Shown here piece by piece: positions 3,227 through 14,033 of a DNA stretch of 25,414 nt; within the stretch, counting starts at the first letter, position 1; every line of letters starts with the position of its first letter. Source of the stretch: a virus. Under the pieces are notes generated by a model. That model had not been told where the DNA came from. It was given only the letters and a program-made list of their open reading frames with translations, and did not search any database. The position numbers and the translations under genes are program-made. The stretch covers positions 1 to 25,414 of IMG/VR virus record IMGVR_UViG_3300038701_000692; one strand, given 5' to 3'.

Positions 3227-5185
3227 TTATTTCACCGGACAAGCGCCTGTCAGACATTCGTCATCTTCCAGCTCATCGAGACTGTCAGAACCGGAGAAAT
3301 CCACGGTAGTTAGGGTACTGGCGTAAGCTTGGTACTCTTCCTTGGTCACTACCTCTTGAGGCAGATACGGATACCCGAGATCTTTAGCTGTCTTTGTCGG
3401 ATCATTCCTGAAGATCCACGACACACCAACGTAGGTGTCCCAGTTCTCAAGCAGCCAATCGATAGCCGCAGGGATCTCATCAACATCGTAGCTGATGGTC
3501 ACTGAGCAGTTGTGATCGACGTAGCTTTCCATGAGCAACTTGTATCGCTCAAGCTGATCTACAGCCGACTCAAGGTTCACTTCAACGCCATCAACCTCAT
3601 CAAACTTCACAGTCTCATTAGCGACCGGGAAGGTAACGATCATCGAGTCATCGTCGTAAGGGTCCTTGAAGTTCCGGTAGCCAGCTTCAACCAGCTTAGG
3701 AACCAGAGGATCGTGGACAGAGAACTTGACGTTGTTGAAGATGTACTTGCCCAGAGGCTTGTGTACGCCTTCTGTCGTGGACATGACCTTGGACAGGGTG
3801 CCTGATGGCTTCACAGTGGTTACTGCTTTGGCGTATGGAAGACCAAGTTCGTCAGCCATTTCCCGGGCAGCGTCGTGAGCCGCAGCACGTAGAGCCTCAA
3901 GGTACTCACGGCTAGGGTTAGCTGCTGCGATACCTGTGATACCAACGCCCATGAGACGGAGGTAGTCATTGGTCTCGTGCCAAGAGGGCTGGAGAACACC
4001 GTCACGGAAGTCCACGCAAGTCTGACGATAGTTGGCACGAGCTACGAGGCGCATGACCTGTAGAACCCGAGGGTTGTGCATACCAAACTTGGACAGGTCG
4101 ATCTCAACGAGGTTACAGAAGCTACCTTCGCCACCCAGAAGAATCTCTGCGCACGGATTGACACCTTGGAACCAAGGCGCTCGCTTCTTTGCAGAGGCAC
4201 CGTTGATAAATCCGGGTTCCGATCCACCACCTTCGACCATCTTTGCGAAGACGCCTTCTAGCTCTAGCCGCGTAGGTTTCTTCCAGAAGATGACAGAGTT
4301 GTTTGACTGTCCACGCCAAGGCTTGTCGATCCAGTGATCTTTCTTGGCAAGAATGAACTCTGGTGCCAGTGCGTTGTCGATGTCCATCAAGGCAATCTCT
4401 GCGGAGCGCCGGGAAGACAGTGTAGTGCCAAGGAGGTTGAGGATATCTAGGATATCGATCTCATCCAGCAGGTCACCTTCCTTGCCGTTCAAGACAGTAC
4501 AGATCTTCTCGAAGGCATCGGCCAAGGTCTTGTCGCCAGAGCTGATCCAGCCGTACCCTGCGAGACGTTCACCCGCTGGGCGGATCTCGGACAGGTCGAT
4601 CAACAGCTTCTCACAGTCAGCCGGGAGGGTCAGGATCTTACCGATAGACCGCGCCCATGACTCTGCGCTGTCACCTACGGACAAGATGTAGTGTCCTTTG
4701 ACAGGGCTGTGGAACTGGTTCTTCTCACGGCCACCCTTAGTCAGTCGGTTGGACCGCTTGATCTCAACGGATACTGGCTTGTGGAAGCCTCGGAGGACTC
4801 CTGTCTCTGGCTTGAAGCCCACTCCGCAGCCTTGGAGTAGAAGCCAGAAAGCGTCAACCACATCGGAGGGAGTGCGTACCGTGTTGAATGAACAATTAAA
4901 CTGGCTTGCTTCGCGAGTACGAGCGACATCAGTACCACCAAGCCAACGAGTGCGGCCAGACGGTGAGGCTTCCAGTTTGTAAAAGACATTCCAAAGCTCA
5001 TCCAGTTCGGTGAGTTCTTCGGAGTTGAGGTCACGACCGAGCGCACGTTCCCAAAGCCACTCTTGGTGCTTGATGATGCGGTCGGTAGTTTCTGCGAGGG
5101 TTTCAAAGCTCGTCCCATCGTCGTTCTTGGGGCGGCTGTAGGTTCGGCGGTGAACAATTTCCGCCCGAGTGTCTTTGAATGACAT
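3227..5185 (-). CDS. Class II (adenosylcobalamin-dependent) ribonucleotide reductase, monomeric type
   Basis: This 652-aa enzyme reduces ribonucleotides to deoxyribonucleotides for phage DNA synthesis. Expected cysteines are present: Cys98 in FNCSF and Cys357 as the redox pair, Cys345 in NPCAEI as the thiyl-radical residue, and the C-terminal shuttle pair Cys644 and Cys649 (CLTGAC). The motif TVKPSGTLSKVM (substrate phosphate-binding region) is also present. No partner radical subunit (NrdB) is nearby, which fits a B12-dependent enzyme as seen in cyanophages. The phage glutaredoxin and ThyX encoded nearby would work in the same dNTP pathway. The Shine-Dalgarno AGGTGAATC precedes the ATG. An intrinsic terminator lies directly upstream (5197-5223), so expression probably depends on read-through. 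Confidence 0.93.
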   Translation of the reverse strand: MSFKDTRAEIVHRRTYSRPKNDDGTSFETLAETTDRIIKHQEWLWERALGRDLNSEELTELDELWNVFYKLEASPSGRTRWLGGTDVARTREASQFNCSFNTVRTPSDVVDAFWLLLQGCGVGFKPETGVLRGFHKPVSVEIKRSNRLTKGGREKNQFHSPVKGHYILSVGDSAESWARSIGKILTLPADCEKLLIDLSEIRPAGERLAGYGWISSGDKTLADAFEKICTVLNGKEGDLLDEIDILDILNLLGTTLSSRRSAEIALMDIDNALAPEFILAKKDHWIDKPWRGQSNNSVIFWKKPTRLELEGVFAKMVEGGGSEPGFINGASAKKRAPWFQGVNPCAEILLGGEGSFCNLVEIDLSKFGMHNPRVLQVMRLVARANYRQTCVDFRDGVLQPSWHETNDYLRLMGVGITGIAAANPSREYLEALRAAAHDAAREMADELGLPYAKAVTTVKPSGTLSKVMSTTEGVHKPLGKYIFNNVKFSVHDPLVPKLVEAGYRNFKDPYDDDSMIVTFPVANETVKFDEVDGVEVNLESAVDQLERYKLLMESYVDHNCSVTISYDVDEIPAAIDWLLENWDTYVGVSWIFRNDPTKTAKDLGYPYLPQEVVTKEEYQAYASTLTTVDFSGSDSLDELEDDECLTGACPVK

Positions 5186-5227: not shown

Positions 5228-5671
5228 TTATTCGAATAGATCGTCTAGGTTTGGTTTCTCGTAGTTAGGCCCCTTGAGAACCTTTCCATCTTCCCGGTAA
5301 ATGGGTTTTCCATCGTCACCGAGTTTACTCATATTGCTCCGATGGACCCGCTCGAATACCTCATCGATAGGAAGGCCGAACGTCACCGCCATACCGTAGG
5401 TAACGTAGAGTAGATCAGCCAACTCTTTGGTGAGTGCGGCTTTGTCCATGCGAGCACCGCCGGGGCGGTAGTCCATCGGCAGCTCTTTTAATACCTCTTC
5501 TACCTCTTCATCGATCAAATCCACCCGCATTTCCAGTAGTTCGGCGTTCTCAAGGGCTTGGATGTCCTCACCTACAGGCTGACCCATCGCCACCGTGAAT
5601 GCCTTTACAGCGTCGTAGTGGACGGAGGTTGAACGGAGGGTTCCGTTGGGGTTGTACTCTACCTCAGGCAT
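5228..5671 (-). CDS. MazG-like nucleotide pyrophosphohydrolase
   Basis: This 147-aa protein starts at the ATG at 5671 (MPEVEYNPNG). A longer frame from a TTG at 5740 overlaps the upstream membrane peptide in another frame and is not needed. Motifs of the all-alpha NTP pyrophosphatase fold are visible: EEVEEVLKE and KELADLLYVTYG (metal-binding Glu and Asp residues), then VHRSNMSKL. The family hydrolyses NTPs or dNTPs to the monophosphate. In phages it has been proposed to adjust nucleotide or alarmone pools, although which substrate applies here is unknown. AGGA lies 7 nt before the ATG. The start codon overlaps the end of the upstream tiny gene, so translation is coupled. A terminator follows the stop. 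Confidence 0.88.
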   Translation of the reverse strand: MPEVEYNPNGTLRSTSVHYDAVKAFTVAMGQPVGEDIQALENAELLEMRVDLIDEEVEEVLKELPMDYRPGGARMDKAALTKELADLLYVTYGMAVTFGLPIDEVFERVHRSNMSKLGDDGKPIYREDGKVLKGPNYEKPNLDDLFE

Positions 5672-5744
5672 TGATGCGTCCTGCCAAAAACCACCCAAGG
5701 GCAAAGCCACCAACGGGTCCCAAGAAAAGCAATACTTCAATCAT
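5664..5744 (-). CDS. Tiny membrane protein (26 aa), third of a coupled trio
   Basis: This ATG-started 26-codon frame begins MIEVLLFLGPVGGF and ends LAGRINA. It is one hydrophobic segment with Glu near the N-terminus and Arg near the C-terminus, so it probably crosses the membrane once. Its ATG overlaps the stop of the preceding peptide as ATGA, with GGAG 9 nt upstream. Its end overlaps the mazG start by 8 nt. The tight overlaps on both sides and the clean hydrophobic composition argue for a real gene. The function is unknown; a holin or another lysis-accessory role is possible. Confidence 0.65.
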   Translation of the reverse strand: MIEVLLFLGPVGGFALGWFLAGRINA

Positions 5745-5833
5745 TCTTCAATGCTCCATCTGATTAAAACGTAAGTGACACAGCCGAAGTATGTTACTAC
5801 CGCTGCGGCTAGAAGTATTTCTGCAAGGCTCAT
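5741..5833 (-). CDS. Tiny membrane protein (30 aa), second of a coupled trio
   Basis: The peptide starts MSLAEILLAAAVVTYFGCVT and ends RWSIEE. It has one hydrophobic helix of about 20 residues with an acidic C-terminus. Its ATG overlaps the stop codon of the upstream membrane gene (ATGA), and its own stop overlaps the next ATG in the same way. There is no database-level evidence for function. The arrangement suggests co-translation with its neighbours, perhaps as subunits of one membrane complex or as a small lysis or superinfection module. Confidence 0.65.
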   Translation of the reverse strand: MSLAEILLAAAVVTYFGCVTYVLIRWSIEE

Positions 5834-6000
5834 TCTTCATCATCCTTACCGTGGAACAGGTTGATCATGCCCAGCACTAGGCCGAGCATGACTTGAGAAA
5901 CTGCGAGGGTGAGACCCAGCACACTGCCAACACCAACGATGACGAAGGGGGCTATGAAACCGTGGACTGCGGCGACCATTAGAAGCTCTTCTAAGGTCAC
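5830..6000 (-). CDS. Small membrane protein (56 aa), first of a coupled trio
   Basis: The frame starts at GTG 6000 (MTLEELLMVA), which overlaps the DUF3310 stop as GTGA, with GAGG 7 nt upstream. An internal ATG (Met8) is an alternative start. The protein has a long hydrophobic region (about residues 8-49, including GFIAPFVIVGVGSVLGLTLA) that could form two membrane segments. It ends in a charged tail, HGKDDEE. Two hydrophobic segments followed by a charged C-terminus is the layout of class II holins, but I see no sequence proof. Its stop overlaps the next gene as ATGA. Confidence 0.72.
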   Translation of the reverse strand: MTLEELLMVAAVHGFIAPFVIVGVGSVLGLTLAVSQVMLGLVLGMINLFHGKDDEE

Positions 6001-6242
6001 AGGATATCCTCACCTTTGATCCTATTGATCTCCATTTCCGCGTAACGGCGTACCTTCTCGAGGTCAGTGATCCGTGACTGATTCCAGTCCATTCCGGGGT
6101 ATATCTTATCCCCTGCTCGACAGGCGTATTTGACGATGTTCCCGATCTCAAACGACAGTCGGTTGACCATGATGAATGTCACAGGTTCGATTTCGTACTG
6201 AGTGTAGTGGCTGGGCTCTCTGATTATATCTTCGGCGTCCAT
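5997..6242 (-). CDS. DUF3310-type protein (T7 gp1.7-related domain)
   Basis: This 81-aa protein has the DUF3310 pattern: PSHYTQYEIEPVTFI, GNIVKYACRAGDK, and DLEKVRRYAEMEINRI at the end. The domain occurs in many tailed phages. In T7 gp1.7 it is part of a nucleotide kinase, but here only the short domain is present, so kinase activity should not be assumed. GGAGAG lies 8 nt before the ATG, inside the 3' end of the exonuclease gene, with a 19-nt overlap. The stop overlaps the GTG start of the downstream membrane protein. It is part of the exonuclease transcription unit. Confidence 0.85.
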   Translation of the reverse strand: MDAEDIIREPSHYTQYEIEPVTFIMVNRLSFEIGNIVKYACRAGDKIYPGMDWNQSRITDLEKVRRYAEMEINRIKGEDIL

Positions 6243-11568: not shown

Positions 11569-13203
11569 TTAGAAATCTGAGTGTTCTTCAGGCCAAGCAG
11601 AGTTTTGGCTGCTATACGACGTGTTAGCTTCAGCAACGGCTGACAGACGCCCCGTGGTCTTGTCGTACTGGAGCTGACCAGCGACCCCACAGTCACCAGA
11701 GAACCTGTTCTTCAGGACGCGGATGGTCGTGAGGTTCTTGGTCTCTTCGTCCTGCTGATTGCGCTCCAAGCCGATGACCATGTCACAGACCTGACCGAGA
11801 CCTGCGGACCCACGGAGCTGACCGAGACGTGTCTGAGCGCCTTCCTCGTGTGGAGTTCCTTCAGGTCGCTTGAGGTGTGAGATCACGATCAGGCCGATGC
11901 CTGTGTTCTCCACCAGTGAGCGCAACTTAGTGGCGAGATTATCGATAAGTCTTCGCTCATCACCTTCGCCCAATCCTGAGACCACGATGGAGACGTGATC
12001 GAGAATGATGTAGTCACACTCACAGGACACAGCGAGGTAGCGGATCTTGCCGATAAGAGCGTCGATGTCCGACGATCCCCAGTGGTCGTAGAGGTAGAGG
12101 CGACCCGTGCCGCACGTAGCATCGAAGGCCTCCTTGAGATCCTCGTCACCGACCTGATAATCAGGAATATGGATCGGAGCATTCAGGTGGAGGCCCATGA
12201 TACCCTTAGCGGTGCGGGTCGTGTTTTCCTCTAGCATCAACGCACCAACAGTCATCGACTGGTTTATGAGTAGGTCGTACATGATCTCTCGGATGACCGA
12301 GGACTTACCCATGCCCGAGCCTGAGGTGAAACAAACCATTTCCCCCTTGCGGAGACCGTGGGTCATTTCATTCAGCTTGGGCCACGGGTAATCGACAGCC
12401 TCGTGAAGCTGGACCTTAGACACTTCATGCCAAAGGTCTTTGGCGTTTAGGATGCCGTCAGGACGGTACGCCTTGGCTTGCCAGCAGCTATCTACGAGTT
12501 CCTTACCCTTACCAGCCAGTAACGCTTCACTAGCGTCCTTGGCAGGAAGCGTAGCGATGTAAGCCTTACCGGGAGGAAGTTTTTCCGCAGCTTCTTTGGC
12601 AGCGGTCTGACCAGCGTCGTCCATGTCGAATGCGATAACCACACGCTCGAATGTTGATAGCCACTCGGACTGCTGCGCAAATATCTTGGCTGCGCTCTGT
12701 GCGCCGTTTGGTAACGACACCACAGGCCATTTACCCTGTCCCATGACTTGAGCCATTGCGAGGCAGTCAATCTCACCCTCAACAATGGTGACCATCTTAC
12801 CACCTTGTCCGAAGAGGTGTTGGCCGAAGAAGCCAGCGTCCTTGAGCGAACCCTTGATGCTGAACTTCTTATCGGCTGTGCGGATCTTCTGACCCACAAG
12901 CTGTCCGCCTGATCTGTAGTTGGCAATATGGACAGTCTTGTCACCTTGCTTGCCTACTTGATAACCATACTTGCGGCAGATATCTTCAGTTATCTTTCGC
13001 TTTCCAAGAGCCTGATATTCACCAGTCAAGAACTCGCTGGGAGTGACTGGTTTCTCGATGGTTGTGCCATCAGTCTGTACTCGATAGCTACACCCGAAAC
13101 AGAAGGAATGAGTATCGTACACCGCAAGGTTGTCCTTGCTCCCACATGAGGGGCAGGGTTCATGGCGGATGAAGGTACTCTCAGGATACTGGTCGTCTTG
13201 CAT
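11569..13203 (-). CDS. Primase-helicase (T7 gp4-like)
   Basis: This 544-aa protein has an N-terminal zinc-binding domain (CPSC at 17-20, CFGC at 35-38), a TOPRIM primase core (VEGEIDCLAM near 141-150, FDMDDAGQ near 192-199) and a C-terminal RecA-like DnaB-family helicase. The helicase has Walker A SGSGMGKS (294-301), LEEN, IILDHVSIVV as Walker B, and the SHLKRP motif. It primes lagging strands and unwinds the fork. The acidic tail ends with an aromatic residue (WPEEHSDF), as in T7 gp4, where that tail contacts the polymerase. AAGGGAAGCCA precedes the ATG, which lies inside the 3' end of the amidase gene. A promoter is embedded near its C-terminal codons. Confidence 0.96.
   Translation of the reverse strand: MQDDQYPESTFIRHEPCPSCGSKDNLAVYDTHSFCFGCSYRVQTDGTTIEKPVTPSEFLTGEYQALGKRKITEDICRKYGYQVGKQGDKTVHIANYRSGGQLVGQKIRTADKKFSIKGSLKDAGFFGQHLFGQGGKMVTIVEGEIDCLAMAQVMGQGKWPVVSLPNGAQSAAKIFAQQSEWLSTFERVVIAFDMDDAGQTAAKEAAEKLPPGKAYIATLPAKDASEALLAGKGKELVDSCWQAKAYRPDGILNAKDLWHEVSKVQLHEAVDYPWPKLNEMTHGLRKGEMVCFTSGSGMGKSSVIREIMYDLLINQSMTVGALMLEENTTRTAKGIMGLHLNAPIHIPDYQVGDEDLKEAFDATCGTGRLYLYDHWGSSDIDALIGKIRYLAVSCECDYIILDHVSIVVSGLGEGDERRLIDNLATKLRSLVENTGIGLIVISHLKRPEGTPHEEGAQTRLGQLRGSAGLGQVCDMVIGLERNQQDEETKNLTTIRVLKNRFSGDCGVAGQLQYDKTTGRLSAVAEANTSYSSQNSAWPEEHSDF
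11611..11628 (-). promoter_or_regulatory. Phage RNAP promoter inside the helicase 3' end
   Basis: This is an exact copy of GCTAACACGTCGTATAGC (minus strand), identical to the copies before RNAP and SSB. It lies within the C-terminal codons of the primase-helicase (encoding part of EANTSYSSQ), about 55 nt before the coiled-coil gene. The perfect identity inside coding sequence argues for selection as a promoter driving the coiled-coil and DNA polymerase genes. Confidence 0.85.
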
Positions 13204-13606
13204 TGGCTTCCCTTACGAAATCTTGCAGAGGGTCGTAACCCTCGATTCCAAGTAACTTCGGGGCTGCAACCGCTGTGACGTGATAGTAGTGATAGAGGCT
13301 GTCGAGCAGGTCGTGTGCGTGACTGGCTGGACCTGCGGGTAGGGGTGTCTTGCCATCCCAACCAACGAAGGCAACGCCGATTGAGTGCGTGTCCCAGCCA
13401 TCTAAGTGATGGCCGATGGTGTCAGGGTGGCGGGTCGTACTTGAGCCTTTCGGATCGACGCAGAAGTGCATACCGCAACAGAAATACCCAGCGCGTCGGT
13501 GGAGAATATCTAGCTCGTTGGCTGTCTCGGCTCTCGTGAGTGCGTGAACGATAATCACTTCCGTAGCTGGACGGTCGTTTGTCCACTTACGTAATTCGAA
13601 GTTCAC
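13181..13606 (-). CDS. T7 gp3.5-like amidase homologue with missing zinc ligands
   Basis: This 141-aa protein starts at GTG 13606, which has an excellent GGAGGAG 7 nt upstream. The fold is recognisable against T7 lysozyme: VIIVHALT (His21, first zinc ligand), CGMHFCVDPKGS (T7 has VGYHFII), and DGWDTHSIGVAFVGWDGK. In the C-terminal segment T7 has His122, Lys128 and Cys130 (HHEVAPKAC). Here the aligned segment is TAVAAPKLLG, which keeps Lys117 but has Thr111 and Leu119 in place of the His and Cys. Tyr46 of T7 is Met46 here. Peptidoglycan hydrolysis is therefore doubtful. T7 lysozyme also binds and inhibits T7 RNAP, and that role may be what remains. It sits between endonuclease I and primase. 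Confidence 0.85.
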   Translation of the reverse strand: MNFELRKWTNDRPATEVIIVHALTRAETANELDILHRRAGYFCCGMHFCVDPKGSSTTRHPDTIGHHLDGWDTHSIGVAFVGWDGKTPLPAGPASHAHDLLDSLYHYYHVTAVAAPKLLGIEGYDPLQDFVREANARRPVS

Positions 13607-14033
13607 GGGGAGGCTCCTCCAGCCATGACTCAGGAATAGGCTCTTTGTCTGAGTATCCGTGCCACAGAAAGTTATTTCGGTCGCACCACATGGCGTAGGT
13701 AGTTTTGCTCTTCTTACCGATTTTGGAGCGAGGGTTACTAAAGACAAACCGGATATCTAGGTGAGGCTGAGAGTCTCGCAACATCAGGAATTTTAGCCTG
13801 TCTGAGGTCACCCAGCGGCCTTTGGTCTCAATTATGATGCCGTTAGGCAGTATGAAATCAGGAGTGTACTTGCGTGGCTTGGCTGGCTGGATGAACGGAA
13901 CCTTCAGAGGTTCGTACTCAAAAGGAATACGGGACTCCCTAAGAAATCCCGCAACCTTCTCTTCCAACCCAGATCGATAACCCTCAACGATCCCCCTATC
14001 CTTGGTAGAGGGTTTAGAAGTCATCGTGGTCAT
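13587..14033 (-). CDS. Endonuclease I / Holliday junction resolvase (T7 gp3-like)
   Basis: This 148-aa protein starts at ATG 14033 (a second ATG at 14024 is possible), close to the 149 aa of T7 gp3. The core is clear: EGYRSGLEEKVAGFLRES, FEYEPLKVPF, and the catalytic YTPDFILPNG followed by IIIETKGRW. The last supplies the Asp, Glu and Lys of the nuclease site. It resolves branched DNA during phage replication and helps break down host DNA. GGAG lies just upstream, inside the end of the SSB gene, with a 20-nt overlap. Its 3' end overlaps the amidase homologue by about 20 nt. Confidence 0.95.
   Translation of the reverse strand: MTTMTSKPSTKDRGIVEGYRSGLEEKVAGFLRESRIPFEYEPLKVPFIQPAKPRKYTPDFILPNGIIIETKGRWVTSDRLKFLMLRDSQPHLDIRFVFSNPRSKIGKKSKTTYAMWCDRNNFLWHGYSDKEPIPESWLEEPPRELRIT

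Follow-up and report, generated by a model that had tools for sequence, protein, structure and literature searches.

The 25,414-base window analyzed here, a virus record from IMG/VR, carries ahead of mazG what we read, with a probability of roughly 0.6, as one conserved gene followed by an occupied accessory slot rather than a three-part complex. The conserved gene, ORF A, is a real, inherited gene for a small hydrophobic protein under purifying selection, and in two phage lineages it lies shortly before mazG. Between A and mazG is a seam that is empty in many phages and in others is filled by small ORFs differing from phage to phage; most of the ORFs in this slot end in the same type of joint, an acidic tail and a stop together with the next start.

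On the minus strand of the window, the ORF map gives the order exonuclease, DUF3310, A, B, C, mazG, and ribonucleotide reductase (RNR) (Table 1). The exonuclease, DUF3310, and MazG labels are backed by family matches in a profile search of the window proteins, and those of RNR and terminase by tblastn hits in annotated phages; PolA, RNAP, ThyX, Grx, PhoH, HNH, SSB, and portal are presumed from gene order. An Amidase_2-like protein in the replication region (13181-13747; phrog_822, E 7e-8), placed as in T7, is a possible endolysin. The original prediction of frames of 56, 30, and 26 codons, linked by GTGA, ATGA, and ATGA overlaps and followed by a start overlapping mazG, was confirmed on this strand, as was the hydrophobic dominance of all three products, with longest uncharged runs of 46, 19, and 19 residues and best 19-residue Kyte-Doolittle means of 2.36, 2.29, and 1.84. 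SD-like matches precede the starts of A, B, C, and mazG (AGGTGA, TAAGGA, and GGAG at 9 nt and AGGA at 7 nt, respectively). Overlapping neighbors are frequent in this genome, so the stop/start coupling of A, B, and C is by itself nothing special.

TABLE 1 Coordinates of the features discussed (in the window unless a contig is named)
Feature	Position	Strand	Basis
RNR, next after mazG	3227..5185	-	tblastn to phage RNRs; gene order
mazG, 147 aa	5228..5671	-	PRA-PH/MazG-like; phrog_671
Divergent block versus ~95% identical relatives	5445..6000	-	blastn and alignment
C stop/mazG ATG overlap, 8 nt, ATGCCTGA	5664-5671	-	ORF map
ORF C, 26 aa, possibly also a slot occupant, with a single hydrophobic segment	5664..5744	-	frame, overlaps, SD-like GGAG
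B/C overlap ATGA	5741-5744	-	ORF map
Joint 2, TGAAGAATGA, end of B and start of C	5741..5750	-	direct repeat of joint 1
ORF B, 30 aa, accessory slot occupant with a single hydrophobic segment	5741..5833	-	frame, overlaps, SD-like TAAGGA, 10-nt repeat
A/B overlap ATGA	5830-5833	-	ORF map
Joint 1, TGAAGAATGA, end of A and start of B	5830..5839	-	
ORF A, 56 aa, small membrane protein at the core of the arrangement, GTG start	5830..6000	-	49 other contigs, alignments, dN/dS
DUF3310/A overlap GTGA	5997-6000	-	ORF map
DUF3310 gene	5997..6242	-	PF11753; alignment with L083/L084
Slot cargo, B+C	window		
Slot cargo, 48 aa	L003, L019, L020		
Slot cargo, 64 aa	L005		
Slot cargo, 43+54 aa	L010		
Slot cargo, 19 aa	L012		
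Slot cargo, 69 aa	L112		
Slot cargo, run of small ORFs	L106		
Family D peptide copies	L085:3912-3992, L086, L088, L087:210-290, L019:619-699, L096:3912-3992		
59-aa soluble gene	L224:3301-3480, L226:3298-3477, L228:1384-1563		

That a normally missed, conserved hydrophobic protein sits in this nucleotide-metabolism operon is supported for A by its occurrence in 49 IMG/VR contigs besides the window, represented by 63 loci and recovered by three scans, one with mazG (of which 80 loci were kept) and two with alignments of A (48 loci, then 45, 44 of them already in the set). Its amino acids are conserved with an excess of synonymous change (median dN/dS 0.22, computed from those 230 of 406 pairs whose synonymous distance was usable), and a 19-row alignment has A10, P18, I21, V22, G23, G25, G29, L30, G40, and G44 invariant, with G25/G29 and G40/G44 forming GxxxG pairs. 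AlphaFold, run with 19 sequences, predicts one helix over residues 3 to 54 (pLDDT 92, pTM 0.56) and not a hairpin. Neither the window copy nor the other members have a family match in PHROGs, Pfam, or NCBIfam, and the single PDB match is at chance level (E 0.52). The A profile matched none of nine named phage genomes (CRP-738, -235, -125, -114, -113, -804, and -403, P12053L, and ICBM1); it did match 6/10 and 2/10 IMG/VR contigs picked from the loci above, all eight being known carriers. A tblastn search of named phages with A, which also found none, filters low-complexity sequence, and profile searches of selected genomes were used instead. A pattern scan of bacterial and archaeal genomes matched 26 stretches, none of them a relative of A, and a small membrane protein ahead of mazG was not described in the open-access papers retrieved with the terms used.

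The carriers of A include both T7-like and siphovirus-like contigs. When the 63 loci were searched in translation, 46 of the 49 contigs had mazG downstream of A, either adjacent to it or separated from it by small ORFs; as for the other three, L124 ends a few bases after A, the series of small ORFs after A in L106 runs to the contig end, and another frame fills the last 157 nt of L085. RNR follows mazG in both lineages, and the A-mazG-RNR order is the same in the two although their RNR and exonuclease are only ~26 to 30% identical to those of the window; it is likewise kept in two siphovirus-like carriers of 43.8 and 44.9 kb, ~27 to 29% identical to the window in RNR and exonuclease, with long genes that look, by eye, like those for tape measure proteins. 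In the T7-like carriers, the gene upstream of A is DUF3310; in many of the siphovirus-like ones, it is a soluble gene of ~50 aa. Some carriers also have, between DUF3310 and A, a second tiny membrane peptide of 27 aa (family D; dN/dS ~0.1 for L019 versus L085), whose L096 copy is 52 to 60% identical to the others over 25 residues. In L023, where the A profile finds nothing, the 50-aa gene and mazG are separated not by A but by a 35-aa hydrophobic peptide (peptide E, 3865-3969), which might be a short or an unrelated stand-in for it. Neither peptide E nor family D shows a significant relation to B or C. A further variation is seen in L087, in which a resolvase-type HTH fused to an additional A-like start (287-574; PF02796 and phrog_125 DNA invertase, E 6e-8) lies directly ahead of an intact A.

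The picture of a membrane trio working as one system fails in the closest relatives of the window (L082 to L084), which are ~95% identical to it in nucleotides on both sides and possess DUF3310, A, and mazG without B and C. The same place is taken in other carriers by small soluble ORFs of unrelated kinds, and the trio is rejected as a single conserved unit. The original prediction had named stops or frameshifts in these frames, in related phages that keep mazG and DUF3310, as the outcome that would refute it; the absence of B and C, with A itself present, comes close to this. By blastn, L083 and L084 match the window at 93 to 96% from upstream through A and at 94 to 95% from position 5445 on. 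In the alignment, similarity falls at the DUF3310|A joint, just inside A, and returns inside mazG, so that the GTGA stop/start shared by DUF3310 and A marks the upstream edge of the exchanged block, and the 5' half of mazG diverges from L084 down to about 5445. Inside the block, protein identity is 65% for A and 57% for MazG, and in the relatives A joins mazG by ATGA. The MazG of the window is 89% identical to that of L002, a contig whose RNR is 27% identical to the window's; judged by these identities, the region is a mosaic, with MazG near L002 and RNR far from it.

B is probably translated and C possibly so; both would be dispensable accessory peptides, a status suggested by their absence in relatives. 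The alternative, that B and C are not genes but a spacer with frames open by chance and that only A and mazG are translated, seems to us improbable. It draws on the failure to find relatives of either, whether by two exact-pattern IMG/VR scans (which need 9 or 10 consecutive residues and miss diverged copies) or by tblastn, run without filtering on 1.5 Mb of fetched loci, and on their absence from the 23 other distinct A-mazG intervals; being found in the window only, they display no conservation in relatives by which they could be recognized as genes. The codon-position GC of B (0.50/0.40/0.40) and C (0.58/0.42/0.50) is atypical next to a third-position value of ~0.60 to 0.65 in the surrounding genes, which counts either against their being genes or for recent acquisition. 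A fully overlapping ORF chain filling the B+C gap also arises in 714 of 20,000 dinucleotide shuffles (3.6%). Nevertheless, B and C are both hydrophobic and SD preceded, and when every ORF of the chain must reach a hydropathy of at least 1.8, a threshold picked after the data were seen, the chain appears in 0/20,000 shuffles, or in 176/20,000 when gaps of up to 15 nt are allowed. Further, B is flanked at both ends by the 10-nt direct repeat TGAAGAATGA, other phages have ORFs in the same slot, and two cargo families recur in other contigs. Matches to ORF C in L147 and L148 (E 0.031) lie on the opposite strand to the terminase gene and were attributed to chance.

The 24 distinct A-mazG intervals are empty, filled, or have an N-terminally longer mazG frame (L008 and L011). 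In empty slots, e.g., those of L082, L086, L098, and L113, the A stop overlaps or adjoins the mazG start, whereas filled ones are seen in L003, L005, L010, L012, L019, L020, L112, and the window, with further cases in L106 and L085. The cargo of the other carriers consists of unrelated, soluble small ORFs; the one from L005 recurs twice in L106 (78% and 49%), and that from L003 recurs in L019 and L020. The small ORFs after A in L106 (4171-5940), several of which are TAATG joined, contain internal repeats and include a beta-solenoid protein (PF18836, phrog_7964).

The joints in this slot combine an acidic tail with an ATGA- or TAATG-type stop/start. Acidic ends, defined as two or more acidic residues in the final three positions, are present in 33 of 36 cases, comprising 22/22 A rows (which are homologous and hence not 22 independent cases) and 11/14 other slot ORFs, against 16/201 for a background of ORFs of at least 60 aa in four contigs. 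The exceptions are C, the 54-aa ORF of L010, and the 128-aa ORF of L106; the count leaves out the 56-aa ORF of L106 and the cargo of L020 and L085. In some contigs lacking A, the gene before mazG likewise ends acidic (seen by eye, uncounted), and so part of the tail may be merely the ribosome-binding context of mazG. In the window, TGAAGAATGA is common to the ends of A and B, but B and C share no joint at their ends, and C ends without an acidic one. Over the last 15 bases, consecutive joints agree at a mean of 9.9 positions (14 pairs), versus 5.4 in the within-genome background (5,517 pairs) and 7.0 in pairs ending in ATGA (276 pairs). At least 10 positions agree in 6/14 pairs (versus 1.4% and 6.9%, respectively), and 5/14 have a common suffix of at least 9 nt (versus 0.07% and 0.36%), such a long suffix being missing in the other 9. 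L085 and L086 share 99.9% identity across 4,159 bp, with the first regional difference at base 4160, directly after GACGAAGAATGA; the L085 contig stops 157 nt past this joint, so its mazG is out of view, and the divergence is possibly an assembly break.

Taking the joints and their occupants together, we propose, at somewhat less than even odds, that marine phages have at the A|mazG seam a cassette slot driven by recombination, with a 10- to 13-nt joint of the type GAYGARGAATGA and anchored by a conserved, previously unnamed membrane miniprotein. Such a GAYGARGAATGA joint would serve at once as acidic C terminus, ribosome-binding context, stop/start overlap, and homology arm, allowing small genes of any function to be plugged in or dropped precisely with mazG undisturbed. 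In the main reading itself, each cassette would carry its own joint, and recombination between joints would insert or remove cassettes; because the joint comes with the cassette, mazG would stay translated by termination-reinitiation after either event. Cassettes would then be expected to start and end exactly at GAYGARGARTGA joints.

The nearest parallel is the nin region of lambdoid phages, described in PMC8022706 as tightly packed small nonessential genes with ATGA stop/start overlaps that are mosaic between phages. The slot resembles this region in its packed small genes, in the ATGA stop/start overlaps joining them, and in their variability among relatives. The likeness is one of arrangement; nin belongs to a temperate lambdoid early operon and the slot to T7-like and siphovirus-like gene sets; the slot further differs in being a single site before mazG and in its shared acidic-tail joint. 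In the nucleotide-metabolism block of Cobavirus/Autographiviridae roseophages (SIO1, P12053L, ICBM1, and CRP-113/114/125; PMC6775973), MazG is followed by RNR directly or after one small gene. They differ from the window in that ORF A was not found by profile in the nine named genomes searched, which include P12053L, ICBM1, and CRP-113/114/125. A 59-aa conserved, unnamed protein, soluble and not hydrophobic, lies between mazG and RNR in P12053L, ICBM1, and CRP-403.

The role of A can be suggested only tentatively. Purifying selection, the 46-residue uncharged run, and the GxxxG pairs together suggest a membrane protein packing against itself or a partner; A might reside in the inner membrane and, less certainly, oligomerize through the invariant pairs. 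Our first choice, weakly held, is that it could be a membrane partner of the mazG-RNR block during phage DNA synthesis. The neighboring gene encodes a phage MazG pyrophosphohydrolase; the preferred substrates of cyanophage MazG are dGTP and dCTP, (p)ppGpp not being hydrolyzed, and the abstract reporting this makes no mention of a membrane partner (PMC6850273). Our hesitation stems from A tracking the phage lineage better than it does MazG. Distance correlations of A (all, T7-like, and other carriers, respectively) are 0.39, 0.35, and 0.62 with the N-terminal half of MazG and 0.48, 0.46, and 0.79 with its C-terminal half, versus 0.69, 0.74, and 0.75 with the exonuclease, 0.73, 0.70, and 0.88 with ThyX, and 0.57, 0.63, and 0.88 with RNR; DUF3310 gives 0.40 and 0.49, the others being too few. 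Tight coevolution of A and MazG is hence unsupported, as the exonuclease, ThyX, and RNR values (0.57 to 0.88) exceed those of the MazG N-terminal half (0.35 to 0.62). Along with the two N-terminal types of MazG that occur after A, these correlations indicate that A is largely inherited with the phage and that MazG is exchanged beneath it.

Small early membrane proteins of phages often act in superinfection exclusion, e.g., Imm of T4, and variable small cargo beside a conserved gene is typical of host-interaction genes. Both precedents, as well as the inheritance of A with the phage lineage, accord with A being an exclusion factor or a host membrane modifier that rides in the operon, with B, C, and the other cargo being phage competition or antidefense genes. 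We consider this rather unlikely: A has no match to an exclusion family in PHROGs, Pfam, or NCBIfam, and its constant place by mazG and RNR in two lineages would be left unexplained.

Least probable is the holin system that the original prediction had raised, with A, alone or with B and C, as a holin, pinholin, or antiholin, since both carrier lineages, represented by the species of the window (L141, 97% identical in terminase) and by siphovirus-like carriers, have a distinct small late membrane protein. In L141, this is a frame of 65 aa that lies upstream of the terminase genes and is truncated by the contig edge; without a holin-family match itself, it aligns at 32 to 35% with 68-aa late proteins from G001 and G002, which have weak ones (E 0.0085 to 0.23). 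A is indeed small, hydrophobic, and Gly rich with GxxxG, one of its 19 members touches a holin PHROG (phrog_920, E 0.35; the window copy has no match), and one siphovirus-like carrier has an endolysin with an N-terminal hydrophobic segment. However, no holin family in PHROGs, Pfam, or NCBIfam claims A across the 19 members, and A lies in the mazG-RNR nucleotide-metabolism block, outside the lysis and late genes, with candidate lysis genes elsewhere in its carriers. The siphovirus-like G002 has an M15 endolysin (phrog_465, 2e-49) beside a weak Rz-like (spanin-like) frame, and spanin-like frames are seen by eye near the terminase genes of the cultured CRP-804 and CRP-403, whose terminases are 56 to 58% identical. 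Together with a second frame upstream of the terminase genes, of 82 aa and hydrophobic near its C terminus, the 65-aa membrane frame (L141:1-443) provides candidate lysis genes that lie outside the window.

ORF A adds to the nucleotide-metabolism operon a conserved membrane miniprotein, none being annotated there in the cultured relatives examined, and if it binds MazG or RNR, this would suggest membrane tethering of phage dNTP metabolism. The joint offers a testable sequence rule for the exchange of small genes, and hidden small genes of marine phages can be sought at the A|mazG seam.
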